From Oscillospiraceae bacterium (GTDB lineage: Bacteria; Bacillota; Clostridia; Oscillospirales; Oscillospiraceae), in contig CACWLG010000006.1 of NCBI GenBank assembly GCA_902761635.1, positions 75,121 through 139,120 of the forward strand: a stretch of DNA of 64,000 nucleotides, read 5' to 3'. Of the stretch, positions 13,047 through 61,440 are shown piece after piece. A model generated the notes under the pieces. It had not been told where the DNA came from and ran no database searches. It was given only the letters and a program-made list of their open reading frames with translations. Both the position numbers and the translations under genes were made by a program. Position 1 is the first letter of the stretch. Each line of letters opens with the position of its first letter.

Positions 13047-13057
13047 AAGGATCCGGT

Positions 13058-13501: not shown

Positions 13502-13504
13502 GCC

Positions 13505-14116: not shown

Positions 14117-14157
14117 CTGACATACCAGGCCTTTCGTGTACAAAGGAGGAGAACAAG

Positions 14158-16069: not shown

Positions 16070-16345
16070 AACAAAAGCCCTTGCCTCTGCAAAATGCAGG
16101 GACAAGAGCAAAGCTCCTGCGGTACCACCCGGCTTGGCGCAGATGCGCCCTCTCTAACGTGCAGTCACACGTCGGCCCTATGATAACGGATCGCCGGCTC
16201 CGTCGCCCATACTGAGGGGAAATCCCCCGTTCTGTTTGCCCTCACGGGTCCATTCATCCGCGCATTCCCTGCTGCCTCGCACCATACAGCAGCTCTCTGA
16301 AAAGGAACAGCCTGCGGATTACTCTTCCCGCTCCTTGGTTTATGG
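16070..16345 (-). promoter_or_regulatory. T-box leader with Trp (UGG) specifier, upstream of trpB2
   Basis: On the minus strand the conserved T-box core GGGTGGTACCGC lies at about 16118-16130. It is followed by a terminator hairpin (16077-16109: CTTGTCCCTGCA paired with TGCAGAGGCAAG) and TTTTGTTTT. Upstream is a stem I with a GAGTAA bulge region and the specifier loop GAATGGACC; TGG at 16250-16252 reads as a Trp codon. Uncharged tRNA-Trp would favour the antiterminator and switch on trpB2 and probably the downstream peptide gene. This accounts for the 360-base gap between genes. Confidence 0.9.
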
Positions 16346-44867: not shown

Positions 44868-44901
44868 TTTTTCTCCTTCTTTGCCCGTATTCAGGCTGCA
44901 A

Positions 44902-46026
44902 TCAACTTCTCTGATTTTCAATCTCCCGGATAAAGGCCCGGGCGCATGGCTTCCAGGAGAAGTCCTCTACCACCTTTCCGGCGCTCTCCGCAAGCTCTTC
45001 CTCATTGGGATAGGGGCCGGTGATCCAGCGCTCGATATCCGCATCGGTATCACACAGGCAGTGGCCGCGCATGTTTTTGAGGGTCAGCGAAGGCCCAACA
45101 GCCCGGATGGCTGCCACGGAGGTGTGATAGTATACAGCCTCCATGATCGCCATCCCGAATATTTCCACCTTGCTCAGATTCAGGAAATAGTCCGCGGCTG
45201 TGTAGATCCTCCACATATCCGCATAAGGCACACGGTCCAGGATTTTGACCTTATCTCCGATGCCATATTCGCGGATCTTCTCGTCCATCTGCTGACGGAG
45301 CTGCCCCTTGCCCACAATCAGGAGGCGAAACTGTTTCTTATCCTGTACATTCCGGAAAAGCTTCAGCAGATCAAGGGGCCTCTTGTCATCCTCCAGCCGT
45401 GCAACGGTGCACAGGATCACATCATCCGCCGCAAAGCCCAGTTCTTTTTTCAGCGCCGACCGGTCAGCCGAGAGAAAGTCCTTATTCAGTACACCAACAT
45501 CCAGGCCCACCGGCGCGATGGAGATGAGGCTGGGGTCCACGCCGAGATCCGTCAGCTCCTTTTCAGCCGCTTCGGTCTTGGCGAGGACCGGCCGCCGCTT
45601 ATAGATTCGCAGCGTTGTATGGGCAAAGATCGTATCCATGATCCACCCACGCAGGGTATGCACATAAAGACTGTAGGTTGTGCCGACATAGGGGACAAAG
45701 ACAATGCCGTTTTTCCTGCAGAAGGCTTCCACATGCGGCAGGAAGATCTGCTGATCGGAAAAGACAAACAGCCCGTCCAGATCCCTGTCGATCCAGCCCG
45801 TCGGCATCCAGCCATGGGCTACGAAGTACGGCATCCACAGGTAGCGCACCGTCAGGCGCTCATTGAGCTGAACAGTTTCCACCTGCTTTTTGTCCTTGAC
45901 GCCCTTGTAGATCATCACGGTATGTCCCATCTCAGACAGCGCACGGCCCAGACCGATTTCCTGGCTGTTATAAAAGCCCTTGATCCCGAAGCGCTTCATC
46001 ATCGTGCAGAGAATTGCGAGCTTCAT
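44902..46026 (-). CDS. Glycosyltransferase family 4
   Basis: 374 aa GT-B enzyme. Donor-binding C-terminal half has ILCTVARLEDDKRPLDLLKLF, LLIVGKGQLRQQMDEKI, and the EX7E-like SKVEIFGMAIMEAVYYHTSV. The N-terminal half is acceptor-specific. It starts only 2 nt after the fused acyltransferase gene ends and is followed by asnB with a 34-nt gap. Exact sugar unknown. Confidence 0.9.
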   Translation of the reverse strand: MKLAILCTMMKRFGIKGFYNSQEIGLGRALSEMGHTVMIYKGVKDKKQVETVQLNERLTVRYLWMPYFVAHGWMPTGWIDRDLDGLFVFSDQQIFLPHVEAFCRKNGIVFVPYVGTTYSLYVHTLRGWIMDTIFAHTTLRIYKRRPVLAKTEAAEKELTDLGVDPSLISIAPVGLDVGVLNKDFLSADRSALKKELGFAADDVILCTVARLEDDKRPLDLLKLFRNVQDKKQFRLLIVGKGQLRQQMDEKIREYGIGDKVKILDRVPYADMWRIYTAADYFLNLSKVEIFGMAIMEAVYYHTSVAAIRAVGPSLTLKNMRGHCLCDTDADIERWITGPYPNEEELAESAGKVVEDFSWKPCARAFIREIENQRS

Positions 46027-46028: not shown

Positions 46029-49000
46029 TTAGCTGTCCTTTCTTACCTGTGGATCGGTGCTGCGCTGTGCATTGCCCACAAGCAGGGTCTCAATTTCTTC
46101 CAGATCGGAAATATCCTCTTTCGGCACTTTGTACACAAACGGCGTTTTCTTATTCTTCCGGCGCAGTATTTTCGGATTTGTAAAGAACGACTTCAGCATG
46201 GATGTCACGAGCTTATAGGCAAGCGTTGCCAGGATGCCGAGCGCGCAGGCAACAAAGACATGGACAAAGGAGCTTGTGAAAGGGCCAAGCTTCCTGGATG
46301 CAAATTCATAGGCGAACCATGCCGTATCACGCCAGTAGCGTTCGAAAAGATAGGTGCCGAAGGTACCGGTGGATAGGAGCGACCAGACCGCCGCCGTTGT
46401 CCCGGAGACAGGATGACGCCTGAACCAGGCCTTTGCCGCATAGAACACAGTGATGCTCGGAATGGCAACGAAGGTATTCATAAAGGTCTGTGATTCCGCT
46501 TCCGACCATTGTCCCACATAGGCCATCTTCCACTCGGTAAGCATATAGCCAGCGCCGATGGCAAGCACGCTGAGCATGACAAGGATCGCAAAATTCTCCA
46601 GATTGATGCGCTCCGGCTTCATGGTACGATCAATGTAGAAGCCGAAGAGTGTAAAAAGCACGTAATTCTGGCTGGTAAAGAGAACAAAATCCCAGCTGTG
46701 CGTCTGCGATCCGTGGAACCAGAAATAGTCTGCCACACTGATGAGCTGTGTCAGCAGGTACAGCCCCAGCAGCCAGAGGTAATCCTGCTCCCGCATACAC
46801 CTGGCAAGCTTGCGCAGGAACGGCAGCGTCAGGAGCAGGGCAAGATATGTATAGAGATACCACAGCGGCGTCATGACATTCCCCGTATAAAGCCGTACGA
46901 GAAAGTCATAGATCGAAAAATTCTTATCCTGATTATAGTAGTAGACATAGTTGATGATGGAAACCACCAGCAGGATCATCACAAAGCGCTTTACACGGCG
47001 AGTCAGGATCGTGCGCCAGCTCTCCTCCCGCCCCAGAAGCAGGGCGCCGGAGGCCATGAAAAACAGGGGCACCGCAATCTTGTCAAAGAGAGAGACACAC
47101 AGATACAGCAGATGCTGCGGCATGTCAAGAACTCTATTAAAGAGCGCAAAGCCATTACTGGTGTGGTTCCAGAGCACCAGATAAATGGCCAGGACCTTCA
47201 GTACGTCCAGATACGTCTTGGGGCTTGCGGGAACCGGAATATAGCGTGTGATAAAGCTGAGCACCGTGCCGGGCTTGTAGGCCCGTTTGAAGCGTGTCTT
47301 CTCTGCCGGCGGCAGATCAGGTGTAACCTTTTCAGGATCAAAGCCTTCCGGCAGCTCCTGCGGCAGGTCATCCTCGGTGGCCTCTTCGCTGTCGACGATC
47401 AGAATGTCCCCGGAAAGACTCTGGGCCTGCTTCCTTTTGGCCGCGGCCAGCGCATCCTTTTCCGCGCGGATACGGTTTTTTTCCGCCTGCAGCTTTTCTT
47501 TCCGGGCTACGGCATACAGCATCCATCCATAAACCAGCGGAGTAACCGCAGTCAGGGGGTAGCCGCAGCGGATTTCACCGTTGACATGGCTCATAAACAG
47601 GCCGAGAAAGAGAATGACCACCGGGACCTGCCCGAGAAGAGAGAGCAGTGAACGCTTTTTGGCGGTATAGCCGAAGGCGACAGCGCACAGCCACATATAA
47701 AGGCCTGTGCCGATGAAGAGCCTTGCCGCAGGAACCTTCAGCCAGCCATTCCAGTAGTCACAAATATCATAAGCATTCTCATGCGCATAGCCGACCTGAA
47801 GCTTGTCGTCAATGTCCGGGATATAGACACGCAGTTGAGGGGAATCGAACCAGGGGTTCATGTGCTCAAAGCTGTCCATCACGATTGCTTTCAGAAAGAT
47901 GCCCGGATGCCGCAGGAACATTTTCCAATACAGATCCCAGAATTCCCGATGATCCTCGCCGGTGCCATGGTAGCTAAGCTTCACCGCGTCCGAAATCATC
48001 GGGTTATATTCCCGCACGATCGTATCGAAGTCCAGCGTTGTGTTGATAATCTGCTTTTCCTTGTCCGACATCTCATTCTGGTAAGTCCGGCAGTACAGGG
48101 CTGTCTGCTGAAACTGCATGCTGCAGATTTCAGATTCCCATTCCGGCTGTATGTCAAGCGCCGGATAGACGACCTGATTGCAGAATGTAAAAATGCCCAC
48201 GACAGAAATCAGGCAGAATACATACGGGAGAAAGTACTTTTTCCAGTGGACAAAAGCGACGATCACAAGGCTGATGATGCCGATAAAACATGCCGCGCGC
48301 CGGGTAAAAGAAATGGCCAGAACAAGAATACCCAGCAGGATCACATTGGACAGGCTTTTTTTCGGTTCCTGTATGCAGCGAAGATAGTGGATGAAGAAGA
48401 GCAGAAAACAGCCCGTGTGTAACACGTCCGTCACAATCAGCTGCATCGCGTTCTGCCACACAGGATTGATGCCGAAAAACAGAATACAGACGATATAAAG
48501 CTTCCGTGAACGGGTATAGCGAAAACACTCCTCCGCAACAAACGCCATGGCCAGACCGTTGAGCAGCACCTGCGCGATTACGGACAGGGACAGCCCCAGC
48601 CCTTCGTTCCCGACAGCAAGGCCGAACTGATAGAGATACCCGAACACCAGTGTGGAGAGAATGGGGGGTGCGGCGGTGATTCCTTCCGGTCCGGCAACGG
48701 AGCGGATCTGATTGAGGGTATCGGCCATGGCGGAACCGGGGCAGCAATAATACAGTCCCGGTATCCAGCAAAGTACGATTAGTAAAAAGGCAATCAAAAA
48801 ATGCCGTCTGTTCTCGCGCGAAGTCGCCTCATCCCGTTGGTTGACGGCATTTGCCGCTTTGTCACAGAAGTGAAAAACGGTCTCCGTCCCCATTGTACAC
48901 ATGCACGTAAAACCGAACAATACCAGCAGATTGATCTTCAAGCCGCCCGGCAGGAAGATTTCATGCAGTTCGGTGTGCTCCATGCTGAGGCTGACCAGCA

Positions 49001-49295
49001 TGTTAAAGCCGAGCGCCAGTCCGACGATCAGGCCGGGAATGCTGATGCGGGAGACACAGCGGGAGAGCAGCAGATATGCCGCAGCAGTCAGCAGCACGAT
49101 GAGCAGCACCGGTGTCCCGTTCAGCGCGTCACGTAAAAGGGCACCCTCTCCCGCATTCTGATACTGCGTGATGCTTTCCTGTGCGCGTACAAAGACGAAT
49201 ACGCACACACTCACCGCCGAAAAGAGCGATGCAAACAGGAGAAGCATCAGGCCGGTCGGAGAGCCGGTATAGATTTTTCCGAGTTTTTGCTTCAT
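46029..49295 (-). CDS. Polytopic membrane protein (DUF6020-like) fused to acyltransferase-3
   Basis: 1088 aa, an unusual fusion. The first 610 residues or so form about 12 TM helices with a large extracellular loop and resemble the DUF6020/GT-C-like membrane family (WIPGLYYCCPGSAMADT, GGLKIN). A charged cytosolic linker of about 80 residues (KLQAEKNRIRAEKDALAAAK) follows. The C-terminal 350 residues are an acyltransferase-3 domain of OafA type, beginning YLDVLKVLAIYLVLWNHTS with the catalytic His. The second half should O-acylate a sugar; the first half could be a lipid-linked glycosyltransferase (inference). Start 49295 has GGAAAG 7 nt upstream. Confidence 0.82.
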   Translation of the reverse strand: MKQKLGKIYTGSPTGLMLLLFASLFSAVSVCVFVFVRAQESITQYQNAGEGALLRDALNGTPVLLIVLLTAAAYLLLSRCVSRISIPGLIVGLALGFNMLVSLSMEHTELHEIFLPGGLKINLLVLFGFTCMCTMGTETVFHFCDKAANAVNQRDEATSRENRRHFLIAFLLIVLCWIPGLYYCCPGSAMADTLNQIRSVAGPEGITAAPPILSTLVFGYLYQFGLAVGNEGLGLSLSVIAQVLLNGLAMAFVAEECFRYTRSRKLYIVCILFFGINPVWQNAMQLIVTDVLHTGCFLLFFIHYLRCIQEPKKSLSNVILLGILVLAISFTRRAACFIGIISLVIVAFVHWKKYFLPYVFCLISVVGIFTFCNQVVYPALDIQPEWESEICSMQFQQTALYCRTYQNEMSDKEKQIINTTLDFDTIVREYNPMISDAVKLSYHGTGEDHREFWDLYWKMFLRHPGIFLKAIVMDSFEHMNPWFDSPQLRVYIPDIDDKLQVGYAHENAYDICDYWNGWLKVPAARLFIGTGLYMWLCAVAFGYTAKKRSLLSLLGQVPVVILFLGLFMSHVNGEIRCGYPLTAVTPLVYGWMLYAVARKEKLQAEKNRIRAEKDALAAAKRKQAQSLSGDILIVDSEEATEDDLPQELPEGFDPEKVTPDLPPAEKTRFKRAYKPGTVLSFITRYIPVPASPKTYLDVLKVLAIYLVLWNHTSNGFALFNRVLDMPQHLLYLCVSLFDKIAVPLFFMASGALLLGREESWRTILTRRVKRFVMILLVVSIINYVYYYNQDKNFSIYDFLVRLYTGNVMTPLWYLYTYLALLLTLPFLRKLARCMREQDYLWLLGLYLLTQLISVADYFWFHGSQTHSWDFVLFTSQNYVLFTLFGFYIDRTMKPERINLENFAILVMLSVLAIGAGYMLTEWKMAYVGQWSEAESQTFMNTFVAIPSITVFYAAKAWFRRHPVSGTTAAVWSLLSTGTFGTYLFERYWRDTAWFAYEFASRKLGPFTSSFVHVFVACALGILATLAYKLVTSMLKSFFTNPKILRRKNKKTPFVYKVPKEDISDLEEIETLLVGNAQRSTDPQVRKDS

Positions 49296-49329
49296 AGTTT
49301 TTCTTTCCGGGCGGACGGGCCGCCTCGTT

Positions 49330-51636
49330 TTATGATTCTTTTCCCCGACAGCAGTCGCAGAAGCAAACGAGCTCATAGAGCCTTGCCGTCAGTGTTTCGG
49401 GGTCGGCGTTATGGCGATCCATGCGTTTGGTCCGCTCGTCATAACAGAGTGACTTTTGCAGCTCAAGAAGCTTTTGAACCTTCTGTTCCTCCGGCATACC
49501 GTAAAACATCAGGTCGATAAACGGCAGCTCATACGCCGGGGAATTGTAGCTATAGGCGTATTTGTTCATCGTCTCCGGTCTGTCTGTGCCGAGACGCCGG
49601 TTAAGGGTATCGAGATCCCGGTCATAGGCCAGGGCTTTATTGAAATCCCTGCGGCGAAACAGGCGGTAATCCGGTCGAAGCTGTCTGATGTGCGCATAGC
49701 CGAAGAGTTCAAAGAGATGGTATCCCTCCTCCTGGGTCAGGATATCCACCTTCTGCGGTCTGAAGATTTTCATGCGCAGTCCCGCATACTTCACATATTG
49801 CTTGGCATAGAGGCTGATAAATGCCTTGCGCGGACGTTTCATTGCACCGAAATGCCGGATAAGCCCGTTGTTATGCACGCCGAAATACTCTTTTTCCAGA
49901 AGCTTCAGATGCCGTTCGGTCTGACGGCGGATCTCCGCGTCCTCCCGATGCCGCAGAAGCAGCAGACCGCTGAGTGCGAACCACACCTGATGGTTGAGGG
50001 TGCAGTCATAGCTCAGCACAGTCCCGTCTGGTTCCACGCGCTTCCAGAAGCCGGTCTTCACATCAAAGCGCTGCGAGTGGAAAATTGCCGCCGCGCAGTC
50101 CAGATAAGCTTCCTCTCCAATGGTTTCATAGGCATATACCAACGCCTCGATCGTCCAGGCCTGACCGATCAGGCCGTTCAGGTGGTCCGAAGCCCCGTGC
50201 ACCACACAGGCAATCGCGCCGGAGCTGCTCCTCTCCTGCTCCTCCAGAAGATACCGGGCAAAGCGCAGGGCCAGCGTGCGGTATTTTTCCTCCCCTTTGG
50301 TTTTCCACAGGTAAGCATATATGATCAGCCAATGGGCGGTATTGCGCACCGGTGTATCGGTACAGCCGTAGGGGCCGTTGCTGCCGGGATTTGCGTGACC
50401 GTTCTTCAGAAAGGCATCATACCTTGCGTCCGCACATTCGGTCAGGAGCTGATCAATCGCCTGCAGATCAAATTTCGGATACTGTACGCCTGTCTTGTCG
50501 GTATCCAGAAACTGTCGGAAGGCTGTCACGGTCTGATGGGCGGTGGTCTTCCAGTTGTGCCGCTCGGCGACGATGGCGTTTATAGCCTCCTTGAAGGCTT
50601 TCCTCTGCGCCGGGGTGGTGGCCATGGCCTGCAGCAGCGCATTCTTCATCGCCACGGGATCCTCGGACGCAAAAAGGATGCCGGCCTTGCCGCCGTCAGT
50701 CCCCTCCACGAAGGTGGGTACATCACTTGCCACAACGGGAATGCCGTAGGTATAGGACATGAGCAGTACGCCGCTGCCATAGATTTTCCGATAGGGAAAA
50801 AGCAGGAAGTCCGCATTGCCGATGAGCTTCGGGATTTCCTCCTCCGGGACGCGGGTGTTGTCAAACTCCACACAATCGCCGATATTGTATTCGCGGATCA
50901 GCGCGGCATAATCCGTCGGGTCGAGCTTGGGGTACTGCTCGCCCCGGATCACGAAGCGGCAGCGGGCCCGGTCCTTTTCCTCCATCAGGGAGATCGCCTT
51001 GAGCAGGATATCCACGCCCTTATAGGGGCGGATTCGCCCGAAATTGAGAAAATGCACGCGCTCATCCTTGTCCCTGGCGTCCTCGTCTATACGGTAAGTG
51101 GTGTACAGTCCACGCGGGATTACGCGGATTTTCCCGTCCGGGATGTTGAATCTCTCCTTCAGCTCCTGCCTGGAGGCGTCGTTGTGTACGATCAGCAGAT
51201 CGCAGGCGCGATAGAAACGCCCGTAGAGCTCGGCGTCGCCGGGGGCAGGTTCGTGCGGGAGCACATTGTGTACCGTCATGACGAGCATGCGGTAATACCG
51301 GCGTGTCTGCTCATAGAGCCTCATCTCCGCCGAGGCCTTCTTAAAGCTTTGAATGTGCAGCACGTCATAATGCCCGCAGCGTATCTCATGCTCCAGCTCC
51401 AGAAGCGTGCGTCCGTATTCCAGCACCGCGGCAGCTTTGCCCTTGCCGCCGTTATAAAAGCGCCGTTTCCACCGGATCCCCTCCTCCTGCAGATCGCTGC
51501 GCATATCACAGAAAATGGTCAGGTCGCACTCCTTTTTCATCTCTCGCGCAAGCTCCAACACATAGCGATTGCCGGGAGAGTGATGTTCTACCATCAAGAC
51601 CCGCAGGCGTTCATCCTTCTTCTGAAAAGACTTCAC
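49330..51636 (-). CDS. Glycosyltransferase family 4 fused to a putative alpha/alpha-barrel domain
   Basis: 768 aa, about twice the usual GT4 length. Residues 1-375 are GT4: MVEHHSPGNRYVLELA, MTVHNVLPHEPAP, FLNFGRIRPYKGVDILL, YRKIYGSGVLLMSYTYGIPVV (shown in part). Residues about 395-650 are helical with TAHWLIIYAYLWK, HLNGLIGQAWTIEALVYA and TLNHQVWFALSGLLLL spaced like the repeats of an (alpha/alpha)6 toroid, the fold of uronate C5-epimerases, GlcNAc 2-epimerases and several lyases/hydrolases. The function of that half is not recognised. GTG start with GGAGG well placed. Neighbours: Wzx 18 nt upstream, the AT3 fusion 34 nt downstream. Confidence 0.82.
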   Translation of the reverse strand: MKSFQKKDERLRVLMVEHHSPGNRYVLELAREMKKECDLTIFCDMRSDLQEEGIRWKRRFYNGGKGKAAAVLEYGRTLLELEHEIRCGHYDVLHIQSFKKASAEMRLYEQTRRYYRMLVMTVHNVLPHEPAPGDAELYGRFYRACDLLIVHNDASRQELKERFNIPDGKIRVIPRGLYTTYRIDEDARDKDERVHFLNFGRIRPYKGVDILLKAISLMEEKDRARCRFVIRGEQYPKLDPTDYAALIREYNIGDCVEFDNTRVPEEEIPKLIGNADFLLFPYRKIYGSGVLLMSYTYGIPVVASDVPTFVEGTDGGKAGILFASEDPVAMKNALLQAMATTPAQRKAFKEAINAIVAERHNWKTTAHQTVTAFRQFLDTDKTGVQYPKFDLQAIDQLLTECADARYDAFLKNGHANPGSNGPYGCTDTPVRNTAHWLIIYAYLWKTKGEEKYRTLALRFARYLLEEQERSSSGAIACVVHGASDHLNGLIGQAWTIEALVYAYETIGEEAYLDCAAAIFHSQRFDVKTGFWKRVEPDGTVLSYDCTLNHQVWFALSGLLLLRHREDAEIRRQTERHLKLLEKEYFGVHNNGLIRHFGAMKRPRKAFISLYAKQYVKYAGLRMKIFRPQKVDILTQEEGYHLFELFGYAHIRQLRPDYRLFRRRDFNKALAYDRDLDTLNRRLGTDRPETMNKYAYSYNSPAYELPFIDLMFYGMPEEQKVQKLLELQKSLCYDERTKRMDRHNADPETLTARLYELVCFCDCCRGKES

Positions 51637-51654: not shown

Positions 51655-53190
51655 CTATCTTTTTATAAGCTGTACAAGTGCTTTCTGCTGCTCCCTGCTG
51701 CACGCAAGACTCACATGCAGCACCGTGCCGATGACGCCGCAGACGCCGGCGCACAAAATCAGCGAAATCCACCCATGTGGTGTATACAAGCGGGACAGGC
51801 CAGTGAGACAGGCCGTAATCACACCGCATGAAATCACATTGCGGATTATATCCGGATAAAAGGTCCCCGCCGGCAGCTCCAGCACGTGGGCCATATACAG
51901 CGGATTGGAAACAAAATTTATAAAACTCATGACCGCAACCGTCGTCCAGGCCACGGCATAGACGCCCATGCGGGCATATCTGATAAGCACGTACATACCG
52001 GCAACATTGAAAAGTCCCCCAAGCAGAGTGACATAGCAGGGAAATTTCTGCTTCAGCTTGAGGGTATAGATATAGTAAAGCGGGTGCATGGCACCGTTGG
52101 GGATACAGGTCATGATGGTCACGACGGTCAGTCTGTAGATCAGCTCCGTGTCCTCCCCCGGTATCCAGAGCCGGTAGAAGGCCTGCCCAAGCGCCACAAA
52201 TCCGGCAAAGGCGACGTTTGCCAAAAGGCCGGAAACCTTCATCGAGATTTTCAGTTCCTTCAGCAGCTCGTCCTTTCCGCGTTCGGCATAGGTCTTGAGA
52301 AAGTGCGGAATGAACGCCTGATCCACAACAGTATAGAGACTCTGCACAATGGTGTCCACAGTTTTTGCGATGGCGAGCTGGCCCATGGCGAGGGAGGAAA
52401 GCATCTGGTTGCACACCAGCAGATCGAGCCCGCTGTTGAGAAGATTACCCACCATATTAAAGGAGGCCCAGAAGCCCTCCATTACCAGAAGCCTGACTGC
52501 CGCAAAGGAGTAATTCTCCCGGGCGATGTGCAGCACAGGCAGCAGCTTCCGGCTCATCCAGAGGTCGGACAGAGCAATAACGAGCGCAGCGCTCAGTGTG
52601 CCGAGTCCAACCCAGGCGACCCTGGCCGGGAGCAGCAGATAAGCCGCCACCAGCACCAGGGCGTTCGTGATATAGGACAACAGCTTGAAACAGCCCTTCC
52701 AGTCCATGCGGTTGCGTACATATCCCGCACAGCCGAACACGGAAAAAACCGTTGTCACCCAAAAGGCAATGAAGGAGAAAACAAACAGCAGCTTGACGTC
52801 CGCCACAAGTTGGGTCGGGACAGAGATCAGACGATCCAGGAAAAAGGTCATCAGCAGCGCCAGCGTCAGCAGCGCAAAGCCCAGATAGACATTTCCCCAG
52901 AACACTGAGGCATAATAACGATTCGCCTGGTCGATGTCCCCCCTGTGATAGCTCAGGCCGATGTAGCGTGCCGCATAGATATTCAGCGCCGTGGTCACGA
53001 TCGTGGCATATTGAGTAAATTGCTTGGCAAGCGTTACAAAACCATAGGCCTCGGTTCCGACAGTACCTGTGATATACGGCGTCAGAATCAGGGTGATCCC
53101 GTAGTTAACGACATAGGCCATGCCCGTGACAAGCATCGTGCGCGCCATATGCAGGAGCTTGTTTCGTTTTTCGGAATTGTCTTCCGGCAT
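51655..53190 (-). CDS. wzx: Polysaccharide flippase Wzx (PST/MOP family)
   Basis: 511 aa with 12-14 TM helices. MAYVVNYGITLILTPYITGTVGTEAYGF is the family's opening pattern (first part shown), and the rest has evenly spaced helices with short loops. It flips undecaprenyl-linked repeat units outward. ATG 53190 follows GAGGGG at about 10 nt; a GTG one codon upstream is possible. It lies between the Wzy gene and the fused glycosyltransferase. Confidence 0.9.
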   Translation of the reverse strand: MPEDNSEKRNKLLHMARTMLVTGMAYVVNYGITLILTPYITGTVGTEAYGFVTLAKQFTQYATIVTTALNIYAARYIGLSYHRGDIDQANRYYASVFWGNVYLGFALLTLALLMTFFLDRLISVPTQLVADVKLLFVFSFIAFWVTTVFSVFGCAGYVRNRMDWKGCFKLLSYITNALVLVAAYLLLPARVAWVGLGTLSAALVIALSDLWMSRKLLPVLHIARENYSFAAVRLLVMEGFWASFNMVGNLLNSGLDLLVCNQMLSSLAMGQLAIAKTVDTIVQSLYTVVDQAFIPHFLKTYAERGKDELLKELKISMKVSGLLANVAFAGFVALGQAFYRLWIPGEDTELIYRLTVVTIMTCIPNGAMHPLYYIYTLKLKQKFPCYVTLLGGLFNVAGMYVLIRYARMGVYAVAWTTVAVMSFINFVSNPLYMAHVLELPAGTFYPDIIRNVISCGVITACLTGLSRLYTPHGWISLILCAGVCGVIGTVLHVSLACSREQQKALVQLIKR

Positions 53191-53213
53191 CACCGGCGGC
53201 CCCCTCTGCTTTT

Positions 53214-54536
53214 TTATAATGCGTTTTCAGCTTGCTTTTTTTGCGGCCTCGCGGTGTTTCTGATGTTCACCAGGGTGCGTTTACGCGTGCCGGCGGCATG
53301 ACAGCCGACAGCCGCAGCCATAAAACAGGCCACCACTCTATAGTCAAAGTTTCCGCCCAGGCAGCGCTCTGTCAGTCCGTTGATGGTCAGGAAGCTCATA
53401 ATTCCCGTACAGAATCGGTACTGATCCTCCTGCAGGCTGTTCATGTCGCGGAAGGAATAAAGCATCATATAGAAAAACGCAGCCAGGCCCAGCAGTCCGG
53501 AGTTGAGCCAGGTCTCCAGAATGACGTTATGCGCACCGGTTGTGAGGGAGGCCATAAAGGGATTTTTTCGCATGCTGAAGCCTGTCTGAAATTTCAAAAG
53601 GGCTGTCGGGTCTCGCCAGAACATGCCATAGCCGAAGCCCGTCATGGTTCTGTTCGCCATCATCACGTCGATGACCCTCCGCCAGATCGGGATGCGCCCG
53701 GTAAGTGTGGCGTCCTTTCCCATTGCCACCAGCATATCCTCAAACAGAGGCATCAGCGCCAGCATACAGAACAGGAAAACAACATTGACCGTGATATACA
53801 TCAGCCCCAGCGGTACGCGGACAGGCTTAAACAGGTAAATAGCGAGCACGGCGAAGACCACCGTGATGATAGCGCCGGTTGCCTGGCACATAAAAAGCAG
53901 GACGAGCTGGACAAACAGAAGCATCCACCATTTCAGCTCTCGCTTGTGTAGCTTTCTTTTTTCATGCAGCAACAGAACCGTCATCACGATTCCAAAATCG
54001 AGCTCGGTGCCGCAGGCGTTTTTTGTCTGAAAAAGCCCGACAAGCGCATGGGCCTGTCCCTCCTCGTCCGAAAAGCCATAGCCGGGAAAACATATGATGA
54101 AGAAAACCGTTATCAGGACAAATGCCCCCTGGGCAATACAGACCATTTGCAGGATCTTAAACAGGCTGTATCTCTCCTGAAGCCAGATCACGAACAGCAT
54201 CGTTACCACAAGGCGCACGCAGGTGATGATCTGCGCCTTCTTATCAAAAGTGACCAGCATGGAAATACCGAAGCAGGAGAACACGAACAGATACATTACC
54301 CAGTATTTCCTGTCCAGATGCAGCAGCTCAACATCCTGCCAGGAGCCGCCGCTGGAGAACATAATGAGGACGAGCTCCAACACGAAAGCGCCGTATTCGA
54401 GAATGGTCTCCATGGATTCGCCCACAACCTTTGTCAGGTTTCCGGGGAAACCGAGTGACACCAAAAGGCTGTATATGATCGCCAATTCAAAGAAGATCTC
54501 GGTCTCAAGCTTCCTCTCGTTATTTGGATTTGTCAA
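53214..54536 (-). CDS. wzy: O-antigen ligase/polymerase-like Wzy
   Basis: 440 aa, about 10-11 TM helices. The Wzy_C/WaaL-type landmark is the loop around GRIPIWRRVIDVMMANRTMTGFGYG (partly shown) followed by AHNVILETWLNSGLLGL with the conserved His. It polymerises the flipped repeat units outside the membrane. It starts with TTG (54534-54536), supported by AGGAGG 7 nt upstream. The VanZ-like gene is 89 nt upstream. Confidence 0.88.
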   Translation of the reverse strand: MTNPNNERKLETEIFFELAIIYSLLVSLGFPGNLTKVVGESMETILEYGAFVLELVLIMFSSGGSWQDVELLHLDRKYWVMYLFVFSCFGISMLVTFDKKAQIITCVRLVVTMLFVIWLQERYSLFKILQMVCIAQGAFVLITVFFIICFPGYGFSDEEGQAHALVGLFQTKNACGTELDFGIVMTVLLLHEKRKLHKRELKWWMLLFVQLVLLFMCQATGAIITVVFAVLAIYLFKPVRVPLGLMYITVNVVFLFCMLALMPLFEDMLVAMGKDATLTGRIPIWRRVIDVMMANRTMTGFGYGMFWRDPTALLKFQTGFSMRKNPFMASLTTGAHNVILETWLNSGLLGLAAFFYMMLYSFRDMNSLQEDQYRFCTGIMSFLTINGLTERCLGGNFDYRVVACFMAAAVGCHAAGTRKRTLVNIRNTARPQKKQAENAL

Positions 54537-54625: not shown

Positions 54626-55324
54626 TCAGTTGTTATCTGAAGGGCTCATCCGTCGAACAAGCTTGAACAGCAGAAGCCCCACGCAGGCGCCCAGCGTATT
54701 GGCAGCCATGTCCTCCAGGTCACATTGGCCGTTGCGCATCAGAAGCTGCGTCGTCTCGATGATGGTCGTCAGCAGCATACCGAGCGGCAGCACAACACTC
54801 AGTTTGGCAAGCCGCGGATGGATCGCAGCAAAGAGCGCCCCGATCGGCACAAACATCGCAATATTCAGCCACAGATGCTGCAGCGGCTCAAGAGAATGTC
54901 GGTTGATCGCCTCTTCTATGGATTCAAAGCTCAGCAGAATATCGGTCTGCACATGCCCTTTTCGGGAGAAGACCGTCACATAGCTTACCATCAGCAGATA
55001 GAGAAAAAACATCACCAGCGCGGTTTTGTTCAGCTCCCCAAAATGCCGGACGATAAATACAAAAAAGGCAAAAACTCCAAAGAAAGCCGCCAGAATCAGC
55101 AGTGCCAGAAAGACGAAGCTTAAGCCGCCCATTTGACTGATGATCAGAACCAGCGGCAGGGAGATCAGCAGATAGACCACCAGCAGCACAACTGCAAGCA
55201 TCGGGATGGAGGAGCGGCTTGAGGCGCGCTTGGCAACCGCCTGAAAGAGATAAAAATACCCGCACAGAAGCAGAATTACGATCAGCAGCAATTGCATGCT
55301 GTCTATTGTTCCGGTTCGCCCCAT
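54626..55324 (-). CDS. VanZ-family membrane protein
   Basis: 232 aa. Four N-terminal helices precede a VanZ domain (about 115-225) with VTVFSRKG, LWLNIAMFVPIGALFA, TTIIETTQLLMRNGQCDLEDMAANTLG (partly shown). VanZ homologues are frequent in Firmicutes polysaccharide loci; teicoplanin resistance is not implied. AGGAG is 8 nt before the ATG. It belongs to the main EPS operon, between the 67-aa protein and Wzy. Confidence 0.88.
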   Translation of the reverse strand: MGRTGTIDSMQLLLIVILLLCGYFYLFQAVAKRASSRSSIPMLAVVLLVVYLLISLPLVLIISQMGGLSFVFLALLILAAFFGVFAFFVFIVRHFGELNKTALVMFFLYLLMVSYVTVFSRKGHVQTDILLSFESIEEAINRHSLEPLQHLWLNIAMFVPIGALFAAIHPRLAKLSVVLPLGMLLTTIIETTQLLMRNGQCDLEDMAANTLGACVGLLLFKLVRRMSPSDNN

Positions 55325-55381: not shown

Positions 55382-55585
55382 TCAGGCAAGAGGGGCTGCC
55401 GTGGTCTGAAGATTCGGGAGGATTCCCGAGTAATCAAAACGTATGCGGGCGATAAGCGACTGATAGATTTCCAGTGCTATTTCCATCGGATGTGCGCCGA
55501 GCACAAAGCCTGCCACAACCAAGGCCAGGCCGGCCACAAGAACGGCTGCAAGGATGATCAAAAGGATTTTTCGAAACTGTTTCAT
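55382..55585 (-). CDS. 67-aa single-pass membrane protein
   Basis: 67 aa, not recognised. A basic start MKQFRKILL, one TM helix (about 8-31), then a 35-residue outside tail. Its ATG overlaps the stop of the BY-kinase gene (ATGA), and GAGGAGG lies just upstream, so it is almost certainly translated together with the kinase. A partner or modulator of the Wzz/kinase is a reasonable guess. Confidence 0.75.
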   Translation of the reverse strand: MKQFRKILLIILAAVLVAGLALVVAGFVLGAHPMEIALEIYQSLIARIRFDYSGILPNLQTTAAPLA

Positions 55586-58149
55586 TCCTCTACCTCCTCG
55601 CCGCGGTATTTACGTCCGCGCGAAACCGCAGCGCGGAACATGGACGGTATCGCCCCAAGAACTGTCCGAAATACGAGCCAGAACATCAGCAGGGCAAGGG
55701 CAAAAGCGCTCAGAGAAAGGCCGGCGGCGACAAGCTTGTCAGCAAGCTCCGTATAAGTATGCAGCAGGGCACTCAAACCGCTCGCACCATAGGCAAAGCC
55801 TGCGGCAGAAAGGCCAGCAAACAGGAGAGCTGCCGCCAGAAGCAGCCCCAGGCATAGGGCCGTTACCGGGACCGCAAGCAGGATGTACAGCAGGAGACTC
55901 CCCTTTTTGGCATGTCGTGCGGTTTTGGCCGCAGGCTTCACCGTTTCAGATGCCGGCGTCTCCGGGGAAACAGTCTCCGCCGCATCACAAGGGTCTGCCG
56001 GGGAATCTGTCACTTCTGCATTGCTTCCTTCTGCCGGCTCCTCTGCCCTTATCTGATTGGGGATCATATTGACTGTATCCGCCGCATCATTCTCGTCGAG
56101 AATCACGATCGGTCCTGGAGGCGCGGACTGCTCAGTCGTGTGCGTCGTTCTCCGCCTGAAGCTGACGGAATGGACGGTGTGTGTGTTCTTCTTGTGTTCT
56201 GCACTTGTCAGGTGTTCTTCGCTGTCTTCCGGGATCTTCTCGCTTTTCTCAGGCAGCAGGATCCTGCCCGGCTGTTCCTCGGGAGGCGCGCTTTCCTCAG
56301 CGCGATAAGCTGTGCTGACAGCCTCATCCTCATAATCCGCAGCGTTTTCAGGTGCAGTCGGCTGCGCCTCACTTTGCCCATCCGCGTTGTCAGGAACAGC
56401 GTCTGACGGATTGCTTCCCCAGTCATTGCTGAGACCGATGCGCACAAGCTCCGTGATTGTCTCCTGCGTAGTGGGCGCTTCAGGCTTCTCTTCCGTTTTC
56501 TCTATGGTATCCTCATAGATGTTCCGCCGTTTTGGCAGCTCACCGGTCTCGATCTGATTTTCTTTATCGGGCGCCGCCGGCTCTTCTCTCTTGTGACGGC
56601 TGAAACGGCTGCCCTTTTTCTCTTTCTTTTTCTTGCCTTTGCCAGCGCCGATTTTGACGTCCGGCGTCGTTTTCCCGTCGTCGTCAAAGCCGTATTTTTC
56701 TTCCTCCTGTTTCTTCTTGGCAGCCTTCTGGGAAATGTTTTTCTTGCGCTCGTCAATAGACGGCGTCATGCCGATCGCCTTGCCGGAGACAACATTGTTG
56801 ACAACGCATCCCAATACACGCGTACCGGACTTATCCAGTTTTTCAAGGGTGCTTTGAATCTCCGGAAGAGAGGACTGGTCGTAGCCGATGACAAAAAGAA
56901 CCGAATCGGCAACCTGATTAAGGCTCAATGTGCCGGAAACCTCGCCCACAGGAGGTGCGTCCATGATCACATATTCATAGCGCTGCTTAAGATTCTCAAC
57001 CAGTTCAATCAGCATATTGTCCACGCTGATGGCATTATGCTCCAGCACGGCAGGCAGGAGGTCAAGATAGCCGGAGAGTGTAGTGATGGCTTCCTCTGTG
57101 GTCACATCGCCGCGGTAGAGCGCATTGAGGGAGTGCTCGTAATCCACCTTGTTCAGGAAAAGCGCGCCAAGGTTCGGGTTGCGGGTATCAAAGTCGATCA
57201 GAAGCGTTTTGTGTTCCATGTCCGAAAGCTGGATGCCGAGGTTTGCGGCCACGGTCGTCTTACCCTCCCCCGCGATTGCCGAGGTCACATAAAAGCACTG
57301 GTGCCCCTCTCTGGATCCCAGCCGGTTGCGCAGGATATAGGCCGCAGCGGAGAAGTTCTGCACCACAAGCGAATTGCCGACCTCGTCGCGTGTCATAATG
57401 GAGTCTTTGCGCTTGTAGTATGCGTTGTCGCGCGGAATAACGCCGATCGTCTCCAGGCCAAAGAGCGTCTCCACATCGCGCACATTGTTGAGTGTCGGGT
57501 GCATCAGCAGCTCCACCACAGCAAAGCCGACGCCCGCAGCAAAGCCCAGCAGAGTTAGCAGCACGACCTTGTTGTTGCCGCCGCCCACCACGCCGACCAG
57601 CTCCGCAACCGGTTCATTGATGATCTCCAGGGAGCCAAGCTGCAGGGTCTTGGGCAGAATATTGCTTGCGTGTTGAAGGATGCTGTTCCAGACGGCCAGT
57701 CCCTCTTCGGCATTGCGCCAGGTGAGCCTCATCTCCAGAATCTGTGTGCTGTTATACTGTGTGACCGTGATGGCGCTTCTGATCTGGGCAACCGTATAAC
57801 CAAGCAGCTCATTTTCGTTGATGACATCGGTGAGCACGCGCTCGCTGCGAAGCACATAGCGCACAGCGTCCACCATATCCTCCGCCAGGTGAAAGTCATT
57901 CACATTCGGGGCGTTGTAGCCGCCGACATACTGTCCGTCCAGATTTTTCGATGTAACGGCGAAGGAGCCGCTGATATTGAAGGACTGATAGGAGCTGCGC
58001 ACGACGGTCATGGCCGAGAGGATCAGGCCAAAGGTCAGTCCCACCAGCGACAGCGCCACGATGATCATCCAACGCTTCTGCAGGGCGAAGAGCAGGTCAC
58101 TCACCCGCACCCGTATTACACCGTTTTGTGTTGATTCAGTACCTTGCAA
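55582..58149 (-). CDS. Wzz-type copolymerase fused to a BY-kinase, with a long tail and C-terminal TM helices
   Basis: 855 aa. Residues 27-51 and 194-217 are the two Wzz TM helices flanking an extracellular loop. The ATPase has Walker A GEGKTT (294-299), Walker A' LLIDFDTRNPN and Walker B VIMDAPP (394-400). Beyond about 470 comes a 265-residue low-complexity tail (first Lys-, then Glu/Pro/Thr-rich) and then about three TM-length segments (about 738-835), which standard CpsCD/Wzc proteins lack. The usual C-terminal tyrosine cluster is absent. It controls chain length and export. TTG start with AAAGGAGG 9 nt upstream. Confidence 0.87.
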   Translation of the reverse strand: MQGTESTQNGVIRVRVSDLLFALQKRWMIIVALSLVGLTFGLILSAMTVVRSSYQSFNISGSFAVTSKNLDGQYVGGYNAPNVNDFHLAEDMVDAVRYVLRSERVLTDVINENELLGYTVAQIRSAITVTQYNSTQILEMRLTWRNAEEGLAVWNSILQHASNILPKTLQLGSLEIINEPVAELVGVVGGGNNKVVLLTLLGFAAGVGFAVVELLMHPTLNNVRDVETLFGLETIGVIPRDNAYYKRKDSIMTRDEVGNSLVVQNFSAAAYILRNRLGSREGHQCFYVTSAIAGEGKTTVAANLGIQLSDMEHKTLLIDFDTRNPNLGALFLNKVDYEHSLNALYRGDVTTEEAITTLSGYLDLLPAVLEHNAISVDNMLIELVENLKQRYEYVIMDAPPVGEVSGTLSLNQVADSVLFVIGYDQSSLPEIQSTLEKLDKSGTRVLGCVVNNVVSGKAIGMTPSIDERKKNISQKAAKKKQEEEKYGFDDDGKTTPDVKIGAGKGKKKKEKKGSRFSRHKREEPAAPDKENQIETGELPKRRNIYEDTIEKTEEKPEAPTTQETITELVRIGLSNDWGSNPSDAVPDNADGQSEAQPTAPENAADYEDEAVSTAYRAEESAPPEEQPGRILLPEKSEKIPEDSEEHLTSAEHKKNTHTVHSVSFRRRTTHTTEQSAPPGPIVILDENDAADTVNMIPNQIRAEEPAEGSNAEVTDSPADPCDAAETVSPETPASETVKPAAKTARHAKKGSLLLYILLAVPVTALCLGLLLAAALLFAGLSAAGFAYGASGLSALLHTYTELADKLVAAGLSLSAFALALLMFWLVFRTVLGAIPSMFRAAVSRGRKYRGEEVEE

Positions 58150-58165: not shown

Positions 58166-59869
58166 TTACGTCTGGTTCACGGAAGCTGTATTCTTCCTTT
58201 TCCGTTTGCGCACGAAATGAACGATCAATACCGTCAGTCCTATGACACCGAGAACAAGCAGGACCGCGTAAATAATATAGTGTACAAGATAGGAATCCCG
58301 CAGGTTGATTGTCTGGATCTCCGCACTGTCGAGCACACGCACATCATATCGGGTCTCTCTGTCGCCGCCCTTGAGCAGATAATAGGCGCCGGGGTCAAGC
58401 GACTCCATATTCATTGTACTGCCCGAGGAGGTCCAGGTGTAGATCAGCCCGTTTCTGTCAGAGTACAGCGCCAGGTTGATGCCGGGGATCTGCATGTCGC
58501 TGAACTCATCGGTAATACCGAACTGAACACGGATCATGCGGTTGGTAGCTTCGACCGTTGTATCGCATTCACCTGACATATAGCCGAAAGCATCTACCGG
58601 CACAAGCAGCTCCGGCTGCGTGATGCGATAATTGCCGACAGCCTCTGTCTGCCGGATGCGATAGGTCGTCCCCTTCTCCACAGCGTCAAGCACGAACTTG
58701 CCGTTCTGGTTGGTTGTAAGCTCGATCGGTTCCCCGCGTCCTGACAGGATCTCAAACTTCGCGCCGGCAATCCCACTTTCGGGGTAAAGCTCGTCGTTGA
58801 GCGAGAAACGGATACGGATGCGCGGGCAGGCAACGGTTTCCGGCGCGGGCATCACTGTGGATTTTTTGACAACCTGGACCTCAATGTCCTCGAGGATGCC
58901 CGCATAATACTGCGGGATCTCCCGTTCTCTCAGGAGATAGTTGCCGAGGTACAGCTCCCCGCTTTCCCCGAGGCCGTTCTCGTCGCAGATGATTTCATCC
59001 ACGATCTGGCCGATACGGTAGCGCAGCGTTCCGTCAGCGGTGATGATGTTCTCGGCCGCAACCACGTCAAAGCTGCCGCCGGGAATTTTCCCGCCGTTTT
59101 CGCTGTCCACCATCTGCACACGGATGACATTCTTTGAGGGCATGACCGGAACACGCACGACATAGGGATCCGGCCAGTCATAGATGTCATTCAGCACAAA
59201 TTCAATGTTTTCGGAGGCGTCATAGCCTTCCGCCTCGGTCAGCTCATGCAGCTCATAGGTACCGGCTGCCAGCTTCTCCGGGAAGTAATAGGTGCCTGCT
59301 TCCGTTGTCTCATAAAACCGGAAGGACACGCGTTCCGGATAATAGGTGTTCAGAATCTGCAGGGCATGCTTATCTCCGTACAGTTCAAACTGTACGCTGG
59401 CTTCCTTCACGGTACGGTCGGTCTCCGCATCGACCAGCATGACATAGACTGCGGATTTCCGTCCCAGGTCCGGATCATCTCCCGGTCCTTCTCCCTGGCC
59501 GTTGCCGCCGCCGTCACCGCCGCCGCTGCCGCCGCCGCTGCCCGGCAGATCGGGAGTCGGCGTAACCGTCGGTGTCGGTGTGGGTGTGGGCGTCGGCGAG
59601 GGGATTATATCGAAGGTCGGGACGGGCGACCACCCTCCTCCGCCGCCATCGTCATCCCGCTGAGCGGTCATGGTGGGTGTGGGAACGCCTGCACCGCCGT
59701 GATCGTCCCCATACCACGGGTCAACCTCATCGTGGTCGGGTATATGTACAAGATAGAGACACAGCAGCAGAATGATAAGCATCAGGATCAGCAACAGCGC
59801 GCTGAACATATCCGACGCAGGCTGCCAATAGTTCAGTTCACTTTCGGGCTGCTTGCTTTTTTTCTTCAT
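58166..59869 (-). CDS. MotB/ExbD-like membrane protein with extracellular Cna-B-like domains
   Basis: 567 aa. The N-terminus ELNYWQPASDMFSALLLIL (11-29) has the Trp, the Asp (D20) and the helix pattern of the MotB/ExbD/ZorB stator subunit. Outside follow a Thr/Pro stalk (about 62-106), a Gly-rich stretch, and three or four Cna-B/SpaA-like beta-sandwich repeats (about 138-525) with YELHELTEAEGYD and FVLDAVEKGTTYRI type signatures. A second TM helix (about 530-552) and a basic cytosolic tail end it. No OmpA-type peptidoglycan-binding domain is present. Its ATG overlaps the stop of the MotA-EAL gene, strongly suggesting one complex. Confidence 0.82.
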   Translation of the reverse strand: MKKKSKQPESELNYWQPASDMFSALLLILMLIILLLCLYLVHIPDHDEVDPWYGDDHGGAGVPTPTMTAQRDDDGGGGGWSPVPTFDIIPSPTPTPTPTPTVTPTPDLPGSGGGSGGGDGGGNGQGEGPGDDPDLGRKSAVYVMLVDAETDRTVKEASVQFELYGDKHALQILNTYYPERVSFRFYETTEAGTYYFPEKLAAGTYELHELTEAEGYDASENIEFVLNDIYDWPDPYVVRVPVMPSKNVIRVQMVDSENGGKIPGGSFDVVAAENIITADGTLRYRIGQIVDEIICDENGLGESGELYLGNYLLREREIPQYYAGILEDIEVQVVKKSTVMPAPETVACPRIRIRFSLNDELYPESGIAGAKFEILSGRGEPIELTTNQNGKFVLDAVEKGTTYRIRQTEAVGNYRITQPELLVPVDAFGYMSGECDTTVEATNRMIRVQFGITDEFSDMQIPGINLALYSDRNGLIYTWTSSGSTMNMESLDPGAYYLLKGGDRETRYDVRVLDSAEIQTINLRDSYLVHYIIYAVLLVLGVIGLTVLIVHFVRKRKRKNTASVNQT

Positions 59870-61440
59870 TTATTGCCTACCCCAGAAATCTGCTTCTCAA
59901 ACTCATCCACAGGCATGGGCTTTGAGAGGAAGAAGCCCTGGCCCTCCGTGCAGGCGCATTTGCGCAGCATGGTAAGCTGCTCCATGTTCTCAATGCCCTC
60001 CACCGCAACTTTCAGGTTGATTTTTCTTGCCTGCTCAAAAACCGCGTTGAGCGCCCCTTGGTTCTGTCTTCCGTCAAAGCGGCGCAGATCCAGCTTCAGC
60101 AGATCGACAGAGAGCTTATTGATGGTGCTGAGAGAAATATAGTCTCCGTTGAAGCCGTCCATGATTACGCGGAAGCCATCCTGGCGCAGCCGTTCCTCTG
60201 CCTCCATTACAGACTCCGGAGATTGGAGATATGCGTTTTCTGCAATTTCCACCTCCAGATAACGGGGCGGAATGCGGTACTTCTTGAGCATTTCCTCCAG
60301 AAAGCCCGCAAGGTCCATGGCCAGGATGTCTGTTTTGGTGGCGTTGATTGCAAGCGGCATCGGGCGTATGCCGTTGTCAATCCAGCGGCGTATGGTTGCG
60401 AAAACACTCTCCCAGATATACTGGTCAAGCTTTGTGATATAGCCATTGTTTTCAAGGATGGGGATAAACACAGCCGGTGACACTGTGCCAAGTTTGCCGT
60501 GATTCCAGCGCACAAGGGCTTCTCCGCCAATGATATTTCGGGTGTTCAAATCATGCTTGGTCTGCAGGTAGAATACAAATTCGCCATTTCGCAGGCCTTC
60601 CAGGATCTGCGGCATGAGAATCTGCTCGTTCCCGCCGGAGACCGCATGCGCGGCACCGCCAATCTGGCCGGAAGCGGCGGAGAACCCCTGCCCCCTGGGC
60701 AGGCGTTCCAGAAGTTCGGTGATCTGTTTCAGCTCCTTCTGTTCGCGGTAACGCATCTGGTCGGCTACAGGCGGGATGACGTTCTTGTGAAACTCCTCCA
60801 CAAAAAGGCCAAGGTTCCGGCGCAGCATATTCCAGGAGATGCGATATATGATGTTGAACAGCAGCGACAGAATCATGCCGGCGATGGAGGTATAGAATGC
60901 AACCTGAATACCGGAGAGCAGCGTCTGGACGCTGGTCAGAGCGATCTCCACCGAGCTGAAGCCGATACCGCGAATGCCGATGATCAGGCCGATGAAGGTG
61001 CCGAGAATGCCGAGACCGGTCAGCGTTCCGGGAATCTGGAGCACCACGTTCTGCCAGCTGCGCAGGGCAAGAATGTCCTCATTGATATAATCCTCAATAT
61101 CCGTAAGCGCCTGGCCGGATTCGCGCTGCACCTGGACCTTCTCCTGATAATCTCGAAACAGGCCGTCCAGAGTACGCTGATGAAAGAAGTCTTCGATCTG
61201 TACCATGACAGACCAGGTGGAGCTTGTCTGAACCTCAAGGGCCCGTTCAATATTCGCCAGTCCCGTCTCAAAGGCATGGTAATACTGCACAACCGGCAGC
61301 ACGCCCAGTACCACCCCGGCCAACACAATAAACTCCATAATCACGATAAATACAGTGGATATGCTGTCTGGGGCATAGGACGTCAGAACAATGCCGCCTA
61401 TCAGTATGAATATTACAAGCGTATAAATCAGTCTTCGCAT
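59866..61440 (-). CDS. MotA/ExbB-like proton-channel domain fused to a degenerate EAL domain
   Basis: 524 aa. Two N-terminal TM helices (about 4-22, 28-54), a cytosolic helical stretch, then the channel helices PGTLTGLGILGTFIGLIIGI (137-156) and SGIQVAFYTSIAGMILSLL (176-194), the signature of the MotA/TolQ/ExbB superfamily. After a linker (200-270) comes an EAL domain (about 275-515). EAL (307-309), N366, E398, K449, E481 and Q501 remain, but the DDFG motif is DGFN (428-431), so it more likely senses c-di-GMP than degrades it. First gene of the main EPS operon; AGGAG is 6 nt before the ATG. Confidence 0.85.
   Translation of the reverse strand: MRRLIYTLVIFILIGGIVLTSYAPDSISTVFIVIMEFIVLAGVVLGVLPVVQYYHAFETGLANIERALEVQTSSTWSVMVQIEDFFHQRTLDGLFRDYQEKVQVQRESGQALTDIEDYINEDILALRSWQNVVLQIPGTLTGLGILGTFIGLIIGIRGIGFSSVEIALTSVQTLLSGIQVAFYTSIAGMILSLLFNIIYRISWNMLRRNLGLFVEEFHKNVIPPVADQMRYREQKELKQITELLERLPRGQGFSAASGQIGGAAHAVSGGNEQILMPQILEGLRNGEFVFYLQTKHDLNTRNIIGGEALVRWNHGKLGTVSPAVFIPILENNGYITKLDQYIWESVFATIRRWIDNGIRPMPLAINATKTDILAMDLAGFLEEMLKKYRIPPRYLEVEIAENAYLQSPESVMEAEERLRQDGFRVIMDGFNGDYISLSTINKLSVDLLKLDLRRFDGRQNQGALNAVFEQARKINLKVAVEGIENMEQLTMLRKCACTEGQGFFLSKPMPVDEFEKQISGVGNK

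Follow-up and report, generated by a model that had tools for sequence, protein, structure and literature searches.

A conserved stator-like gene pair with EAL and Cna-B domains at the head of a clostridial Wzx/Wzy polysaccharide operon, a putative ion-driven motor

The window analyzed here is a stretch of 64,000 nucleotides from an Oscillospiraceae bacterium (assembly GCA_902761635.1, contig CACWLG010000006.1, positions 75,121 to 139,120). On its minus strand, from 61440 to 58166, two open reading frames (ORFs) sharing a four-base ATGA overlap encode a pair of membrane proteins, called here A and B; both ORFs and the overlap are as described in the original prediction. The A subunit (59866..61440, 524 residues) joins a four-helix channel of the MotA/ZorA type to an EAL domain. 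The B subunit (58166..59869, 567 residues) consists of a MotB/ZorB-type N-terminal helix, a Pro/Gly linker, four Cna-B/SpaA-type domains, and a C-terminal membrane helix. The next gene begins 16 bases past the pair and encodes a fusion of a Wzz-type co-polymerase with a BY-kinase-like ATPase; it is followed, on the same strand down to 41821, by genes for VanZ, Wzy, Wzx, and glycosyltransferases. The pair was rightly placed at the head of a Wzx/Wzy operon and directly before Wzz/BY-kinase. The A–B cassette is a real, conserved family. Among these sugar-coat genes, in some gut bacteria, a motor-like pair fused to a putative second-messenger-sensing domain stands first, which suggests that mechanical power may drive the building or export of the coat and that the second messenger may switch it.

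In the A subunit, the Pfam family MotA_ExbB matches residues 107-202 (60835..61122, minus strand; 30.7 bits with a cut-off of 22.9), a segment that contains the motifs PGTLTGLGILGTF and AFYTS, and the proposed stator-type channel is borne out. The best stator-type match of this domain is ZorA in both NCBIfam and PADLOC, the NCBIfam score (58.8 bits) being under the curated cut-off of 100. A profile built on six A domains and compared with all PDB sequences gives 13 matches up to E 10. Six of them are ZorA (best 8VVN, E 4.7e-16), five a glutamate transporter, and two designed proteins, with no MotA, ExbB, or TolQ chain among the 13; the ExbB/TolQ models of NCBIfam do not match the A protein up to E 1. 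A kinship with MotA/TolQ/ExbB had been proposed; it holds for the superfamily, but the nearest solved relatives are ZorAB and not MotAB, ExbBD, or TolQR. The residues T141, T148, T184, and S185 are identical in all 32 A subunits compared (31 relatives and the window). In Zorya, the matching Asp packs on a Ser/Thr ring of ZorA and is required for defense (sections of PMC11890865). The invariant Thr/Ser residues of A, together with an invariant Asp in B, support a predicted ion conduction.

The AlphaFold2 model of A (39 aligned sequences, mean predicted local distance difference test [pLDDT] 82.1) shows helices at 2-21, 26-69, 136-157, and 164-220, a low-confidence linker at 245-271, and the EAL fold after it. 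By hydropathy, there are four membrane segments in the A subunit of the window and three in some relatives. Among the 50 Foldseek matches listed, of 1287, only EAL structures occur. The predicted TM-scores (pTM) of the two models are low (0.48 for A and 0.56 for B), so that the relative placing of their parts is not predicted. Apart from the A protein, no MotA_ExbB protein was found in this genome, which is 85.8% complete.

The B model (AlphaFold2, 26 sequences, mean pLDDT 78.5) starts with a helix at 15-41 that carries Asp20 (codon 59810..59812, minus strand), the conserved N-terminal Asp noticed earlier, which is invariant in the 31 readable copies. The B N-terminus weakly matches the ZorB models (19.6 bits), and a B profile over residues 6-59 finds, in the PDB, the B chain of 8VVI (E 0.0019); profile searches thus recover a stator-type match for each of the two subunits. 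8VVI is the ZorAB complex of Zorya type II and 8VVN a complex of Zorya type I (sections of PMC11890865). The Pro/Gly-rich linker (residues 44-135; 59465..59740, minus strand) is modeled with low confidence and predicted to be disordered. It leads to four beta-sandwich domains (residues 137-525; 58295..59461, minus strand), mostly near or above pLDDT 90, and Pfam SpaA matches the protein in three stretches (83.3 bits, cut-off 23.1). When five B subunits are combined into a profile and compared with the PDB, a pilin-type protein is matched (E 4.5e-5). For the B model, Foldseek returns pilins and adhesins of the Cna-B type, and the TM-scores for the full chain are low (by query length, 0.13-0.28 in the top rows, bar two that are lower), which is what a flexible chain of domains should give. 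By inspection, in the light of Cna-B chemistry, the first strands of the four domains presumably do without the usual isopeptide Lys.

The chain ends in a second membrane helix with a basic tail (residues 528-565; 58175..58288, minus strand). This C-terminal hydrophobic helix is present in 27 of 27 complete B copies, the window included; four further copies (L086, L097, L100, and L103) are cut or short. The original prediction had seen the Cna-B domains correctly and taken them for a free stalk; with the helix that it overlooked, they form instead a loop closed at the membrane. No LPxTG-like motif occurs in the last 110 residues of 31 B copies (four of them incomplete), and a sortase-anchored Cna-B pilin is rejected on that ground. 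Pfam finds no OmpA domain in the B protein of the window up to E 1, SpaA being found instead.

The EAL domain of A (residues 279-508; 59917..60606, minus strand) is matched by Pfam at 175.7 bits (cut-off 31.3), and its fold is predicted in the model (best Foldseek match 4rnj, E 1.8e-18). In active EAL enzymes, the catalytic loop reads DDFG(T/S)G, and the second Asp of DDFG is needed for catalysis. In the window and 30 relatives, the loop reads DGF (26 copies), DNF (two), KGF, HGY, or YGY (one each). The second Asp is replaced in 31 of 31 (Gly in 29, Asn in two) while the first, D428, is kept in 28 of 31; in the window, the codons of D428 and G429 are at 60154..60159 (minus strand). Among the other EAL domains examined, eight from seven loci of the window's genome, DDFG is intact in seven. 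Further positions, which we take to be catalytic or binding residues, are kept as follows: E307 in 27/31, N366 in 28/31, K449 in 27/30, E481 in 26/30, E484 in 27/30, and Q501 in 27/30. The EAL domain is there, as originally proposed, but since the second DDFG Asp is replaced throughout, a normal phosphodiesterase is unlikely. The domain is probably a receptor for cyclic di-GMP (c-di-GMP), the second catalytic-loop Asp being lost; judging from these residues, core members most likely sense c-di-GMP without cutting it, and some members gave up sensing. LapD-type receptors are membrane proteins in which an altered EAL binds rather than cuts c-di-GMP (parts of PMC3032553). LapD controls a periplasmic protease, whereas here the EAL domain is attached to a putative ion channel.

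GGDEF is matched 41 times in the window's genome and EAL 16 times, counting the fusion. In one relative (L094), a GGDEF gene (141 bits) lies 36 bases upstream of the A gene, and in L095 an ORF of the same length, compared by position and length only, occupies that place. Two relatives have a c-di-GMP-I riboswitch upstream: in L098 (63 bits) it precedes the VanZ-A-B-Wzz genes, and in L104 (35.9 bits, barely over the threshold of 35) it stands immediately before the A gene. At that threshold, none is found in the 29 other relatives, some with little upstream sequence, or in the window. A more permissive search finds none in nine relatives and none in the window leader, and such a riboswitch ahead of the window operon is rejected. 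L104 has a second c-di-GMP-I riboswitch on the other strand (7016-7109, minus; 54.5 bits), ahead of a 707-residue ORF. At the start of the window (472-2718, minus strand), there is another EAL protein (C6:75604-76341), and an equally long open frame on that strand has a GGDEF match.

Relatives were collected by a contig scan with the A-domain alignment: of 371 matching stretches, 122 could be confirmed, and from these the 80 best were kept, a lower bound because two peptide patterns were used. The 80 comprise 31 loci with the A–B cassette system (L078-L108) and 49 loci with another pair without EAL or Cna-B (L109-L157). Some of the 31 are near-copies or come from the same genomes as the whole-genome surveys, and L102 and L103 carry one isolate's name. 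Carriers not marked as metagenome assemblies include Lachnoclostridium sp. Marseille-P6806 (L093) and strain 1XD21-72 (L094). The B gene directly follows the A gene in 30 of the 30 loci whose contig reaches B, so the pairing is not due to chance, and the two genes are found together rather than apart; the L099 contig ends within the A gene, and the B gene of L100, close to the end of its contig, is divided between two frames. At the A–B junction, compared in 29 loci, the four-base overlap occurs in 14 and the largest gap is 91 bases.

Wzz is the third gene in 27 of the 27 loci with a contig beyond B. At least one polysaccharide marker (Wzy, Wzx, VanZ, glycosyltransferases, or UDP-sugar dehydrogenase) is present in 21 of the 31 loci, in a search with window proteins as queries (E below 1e-8); the markers being taken from the window, this count favors its close relatives. 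In two of the ten marker-less loci (L105 and L106), Pfam does see polysaccharide genes. Among the 49 outgroup loci, in the stretches around the pair from the same scan, neither Wzz (0/49) nor polysaccharide markers (0/49) occur. In L108, a cassette without EAL (9947-14326) is made of A (271 residues), B, and Wzz, and is preceded by a LuxR-type response regulator; this locus suggests A-B-Wzz as the minimal unit.

The whole A protein matched in 69 of 300 genomes of the family sample, three of the 300 at full length (at most four candidates scored per genome). Whole-protein searches are swamped by the EAL domain, and later searches therefore used the N-terminal part. With that part, eight of 400 family-sample genomes matched: the cassette, or an A–B pair at a contig end, is found in five (G000, G174, G235, G372, and G384) and the other pair alone in three. 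In the phylum sample, 11 of 398 genomes matched, the window's own included; the other ten have A and B genes without the cassette. PADLOC, run on the neighbors of three of these ten loci, finds ZorC or ZorD models in 3/3.

A tree of A domains was built with longer cores on 38 chosen rows (18 of 32 family copies, 12 of 49 outgroup loci, and eight of ten Zorya-like loci), leaving out the near-copy L070, the odd L077, and the E. coli references. A branch with support 100/99 sets the family apart, and one with 99/98 the Zorya-like set; the outgroup set is not separated by a single branch. Because the E. coli references were left out, MotA, ExbB, and TolQ are not placed in this tree. An earlier tree, with shorter cores and the LAC_L124 core wrongly cut, was discarded; family support was weak there (20/28), and E. 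coli MotA was already missing from it, as the pattern used for cutting failed to match its motif. In A-domain profile–profile comparison, the orphan Lachnospiraceae pair of L109-L157 is nearer to the family (E 2.2e-37) than the Zorya-like set is (E 8.4e-24). Pairwise identities among 26 copies (the window among them; six copies that are incomplete or have no EAL were left out) vary together, with r 0.94 between A domain and B, 0.95 between B and Wzz, 0.91 to 0.95 overall among A domain, B, and Wzz, and 0.84 to 0.89 with EAL, all values being uncorrected for species phylogeny and shared descent.

The orphan pair has the closest A domains and differs in having no EAL match and no full Cna-B partner in 49/49 loci, with no Wzz around it. 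It occurs in Lachnospiraceae (also L064-L067), including Blautia wexlerae (L124) and Enterocloster (L157), with a ZorA-like A subunit without EAL. The only B protein of this pair that was scanned, that of L066, has an OmpA domain and matches ZorB models at 236 bits; L066 adjoins a gene resembling endonuclease IV (named by inspection).

The Wzz protein of the window (55582..58149, minus strand, 855 residues) has a Wzz domain scoring 16.5 bits, under the Pfam cut-off of 25.5. It keeps Walker A, A', and B-like motifs, and its tail is without a YxYxY-type cluster. It is the only full-length match of its kind in the genome, with five partial matches besides. The Walker A Lys is replaced in nine of 28 Wzz proteins, the window counted (L085, L087, L089, L090, L102, L103, L105, L106, and L107), and present in the window's subclade. 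Phosphorylation-independent Wzz and pseudokinase partners are known (parts of PMC12004946). Where Wzz has lost the kinase motif, the motor motifs persist, so the driver shared by all members could be ion flow instead of kinase turnover. In the window's subclade, Wzz extends into a long tail that includes two additional hydrophobic segments at the C-terminus; the tail has a match elsewhere in the genome (C1:83565-83897).

We favor, with a probability of about one half, a dedicated 5:2-type ion-driven membrane motor for Wzx/Wzy polysaccharide assembly, of which we infer the stoichiometry, the ion flow, the c-di-GMP binding, and the coupling to polymer export. The first helices of two B subunits would sit inside a ring of five A subunits, and ions passing Asp20 would turn the A ring against B. 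B would be held by its second membrane helix and the Cna-B array, probably against the Wzz oligomer and not by peptidoglycan as MotB and ZorB are; the second helix would replace peptidoglycan anchoring and may contact Wzz. The EAL ring would bind c-di-GMP, which would unlock or lock the motor. The movement could assist chain-length control, the opening and closing of the Wzz–Wzy assembly, or the passage of polymer through the wall. Such a motor bears on the force that pushes or releases long polymers through a thick wall in Wzx/Wzy systems and on the control of capsules by c-di-GMP in Clostridia. If the reading is true, the known uses of 5:2 motors are extended, and a second messenger acts directly on a motor subunit and not via an adaptor.

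The best functional precedent for ion-driven polymer export is AglRQS-Nfs of Myxococcus xanthus, by analogy, where transport or compaction of a surface polysaccharide requires an ion-driven channel. There, according to parts of PMC3858216, spore-coat assembly depends on the AglRQS channel, sporulation fails in the channel-dead aglQ D28N mutant, the spore coat of aglQ mutants is loose, and an uncoupler halts transport. This system differs in its three-subunit channel and separate Nfs envelope complex. Tentatively, a more specific version is possible for the cassette, that of the first ion-driven rotary motor in a Gram-positive Wzx/Wzy machine: c-di-GMP on the EAL ring of the rotor would switch the motor, the Cna-B/two-helix axle would work on Wzz, and ion flow, perhaps replacing kinase ATP turnover in some members, would power or time polymer assembly or release. 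We know of neither an EAL domain nor an A-B-Wzz cassette in AglRQS-Nfs.

Several observations weigh against the motor. The second membrane helix of B is, to our knowledge, unlike the known 5:2 motors and could hinder rotation. The EAL pocket is not uniformly intact, E398 being kept in only 20 of 31 copies (Asp in eight) and E401 in only 17 of 31. Sensing of c-di-GMP is not essential to the cassette, since most of the EAL pocket is lost in L105-L107 and EAL is absent from L108. A c-di-GMP-I riboswitch is found in only two of 32 loci (31 relatives and the window), and a genome-wide search for it in the window's genome is silent, as is its control. L108 has no Wzx/Wzy, VanZ, or glycosyltransferase match within the 20.7 kb examined. 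For the tree, the program gave a warning of long branches meeting, and the correlations between A, B, and Wzz may, as said, contain shared descent.

The main rival to the motor, which we regard as rather unlikely, is a c-di-GMP-gated ion channel or sensor that does not rotate; an ion leak or a conformational change would signal to Wzz/BY-kinase, and the two-helix Cna-B loop would sense the polymer or the wall. The second B helix in all complete copies, the constant third place of Wzz, and the nucleotide-binding motifs kept in the window Wzz agree with it. Against it, the ion-path motifs common to ion-driven motors are invariant, and the loss of the Walker A Lys in nine of 28 Wzz proteins means that a kinase target is not general. 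It is improbable that the EAL domain is an active c-di-GMP phosphodiesterase that the channel part mainly localizes, lowering c-di-GMP near the polysaccharide machinery: the predicted EAL fold and the pocket residues kept in most copies, D428 included, would fit, and the replacement of the second DDFG Asp throughout, versus its retention in most other EAL domains examined from the same genome, speaks against it, as do the positions E398 and E401. Still less probable is a motor that moves a surface structure or the whole cell in a gliding-like manner, with the polysaccharide as adhesive or track. The pilin-type Cna-B array would suit it, and the superfamily also includes the Agl gliding motor (parts of PMC3858216); B is anchored at both ends, however, without an LPxTG-like motif, and no flagellin gene was found (adhesins were not searched for). 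A Zorya-like anti-phage system is very improbable and is rejected, for although ZorA is the closest named family to the A domain, B has no OmpA domain, the family is a separate clade with polysaccharide neighbors, and PADLOC finds no ZorC, ZorD, or ZorE match in the four window neighbors tested, as opposed to ZorC or ZorD beside the ZorA-like genes of the three phylum loci tested.

The likeness to ZorAB lies in the A-domain topology, the GILGTF and AF.TS motifs, the N-terminal W....D helix of B, and the ZorA profile match; the EAL domain replaces the ZorA tail, and Cna-B plus the second membrane helix replace the peptidoglycan-binding domain. With the flagellar stator MotAB, the pair shares the four-helix A subunit and the B helix with Asp, and differs from it in lacking an OmpA-type domain in B. 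There is no Flagellin_N match in the window's genome (control positive in 4/14 genomes; no other flagellar family searched), and with no second MotA_ExbB protein found there either, a flagellar stator is rejected, within the stated completeness of the assembly. The PCP-2 systems (Wzc, CapAB, and EpsV-EcpK) likewise have Wzz with a BY-kinase or pseudokinase in Wzx/Wzy loci (parts of PMC12004946); in the family, unlike those systems, the ion-motor pair precedes Wzz in every relative read. By its sequence, the cassette is neither a flagellar stator nor Zorya: it is a known superfamily in a new build and a new genetic setting. Searches of the open full-text literature, a scope with most subscription papers and preprints outside it, brought up no description of a stator bearing EAL or Cna-B or of a stator of a Wzx/Wzy operon among the matches listed, and the word "polysaccharide" is absent from the main text of two papers on the superfamily, one a phylogenetic study and the other a review (PMC12505986, PMC9389320). 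In all, the original interpretation of the pair is partly supported.

The remaining genes of the operon, all on the minus strand, were scanned by Pfam and are mostly polysaccharide genes. After Wzz come a VanZ-like membrane protein (54626..55324), a Wzy-type polymerase (53214..54536; Wzy_C, 44.6 bits), a Wzx-type flippase (51655..53193; Polysacc_synt, 44.8 bits), and a group 1 glycosyltransferase with a C-terminal extension (49330..51636). A fusion of DUF6020 and acyltransferase_3 (46029..49376, 1115 residues) lies inside the operon, followed by a second group 1 glycosyltransferase (44902..46026), an asparagine synthase family protein (43035..44921), and a third group 1 glycosyltransferase (41821..43017). 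Upstream of the pair, a gap of 339 bases separates it from a GNAT gene on the same strand. The leader of the window aligned with those of L078-L084 (350 bases, sequence only, unfolded) has a mean column identity of 45%, and a conserved leader ahead of the pair is rejected. Two promoter-like matches are found versus 0.9 +/- 0.9 expected, which is not clearly above chance. Elsewhere in the window, there is a T-box leader at 16095-16344 (minus strand, 97.2 bits).

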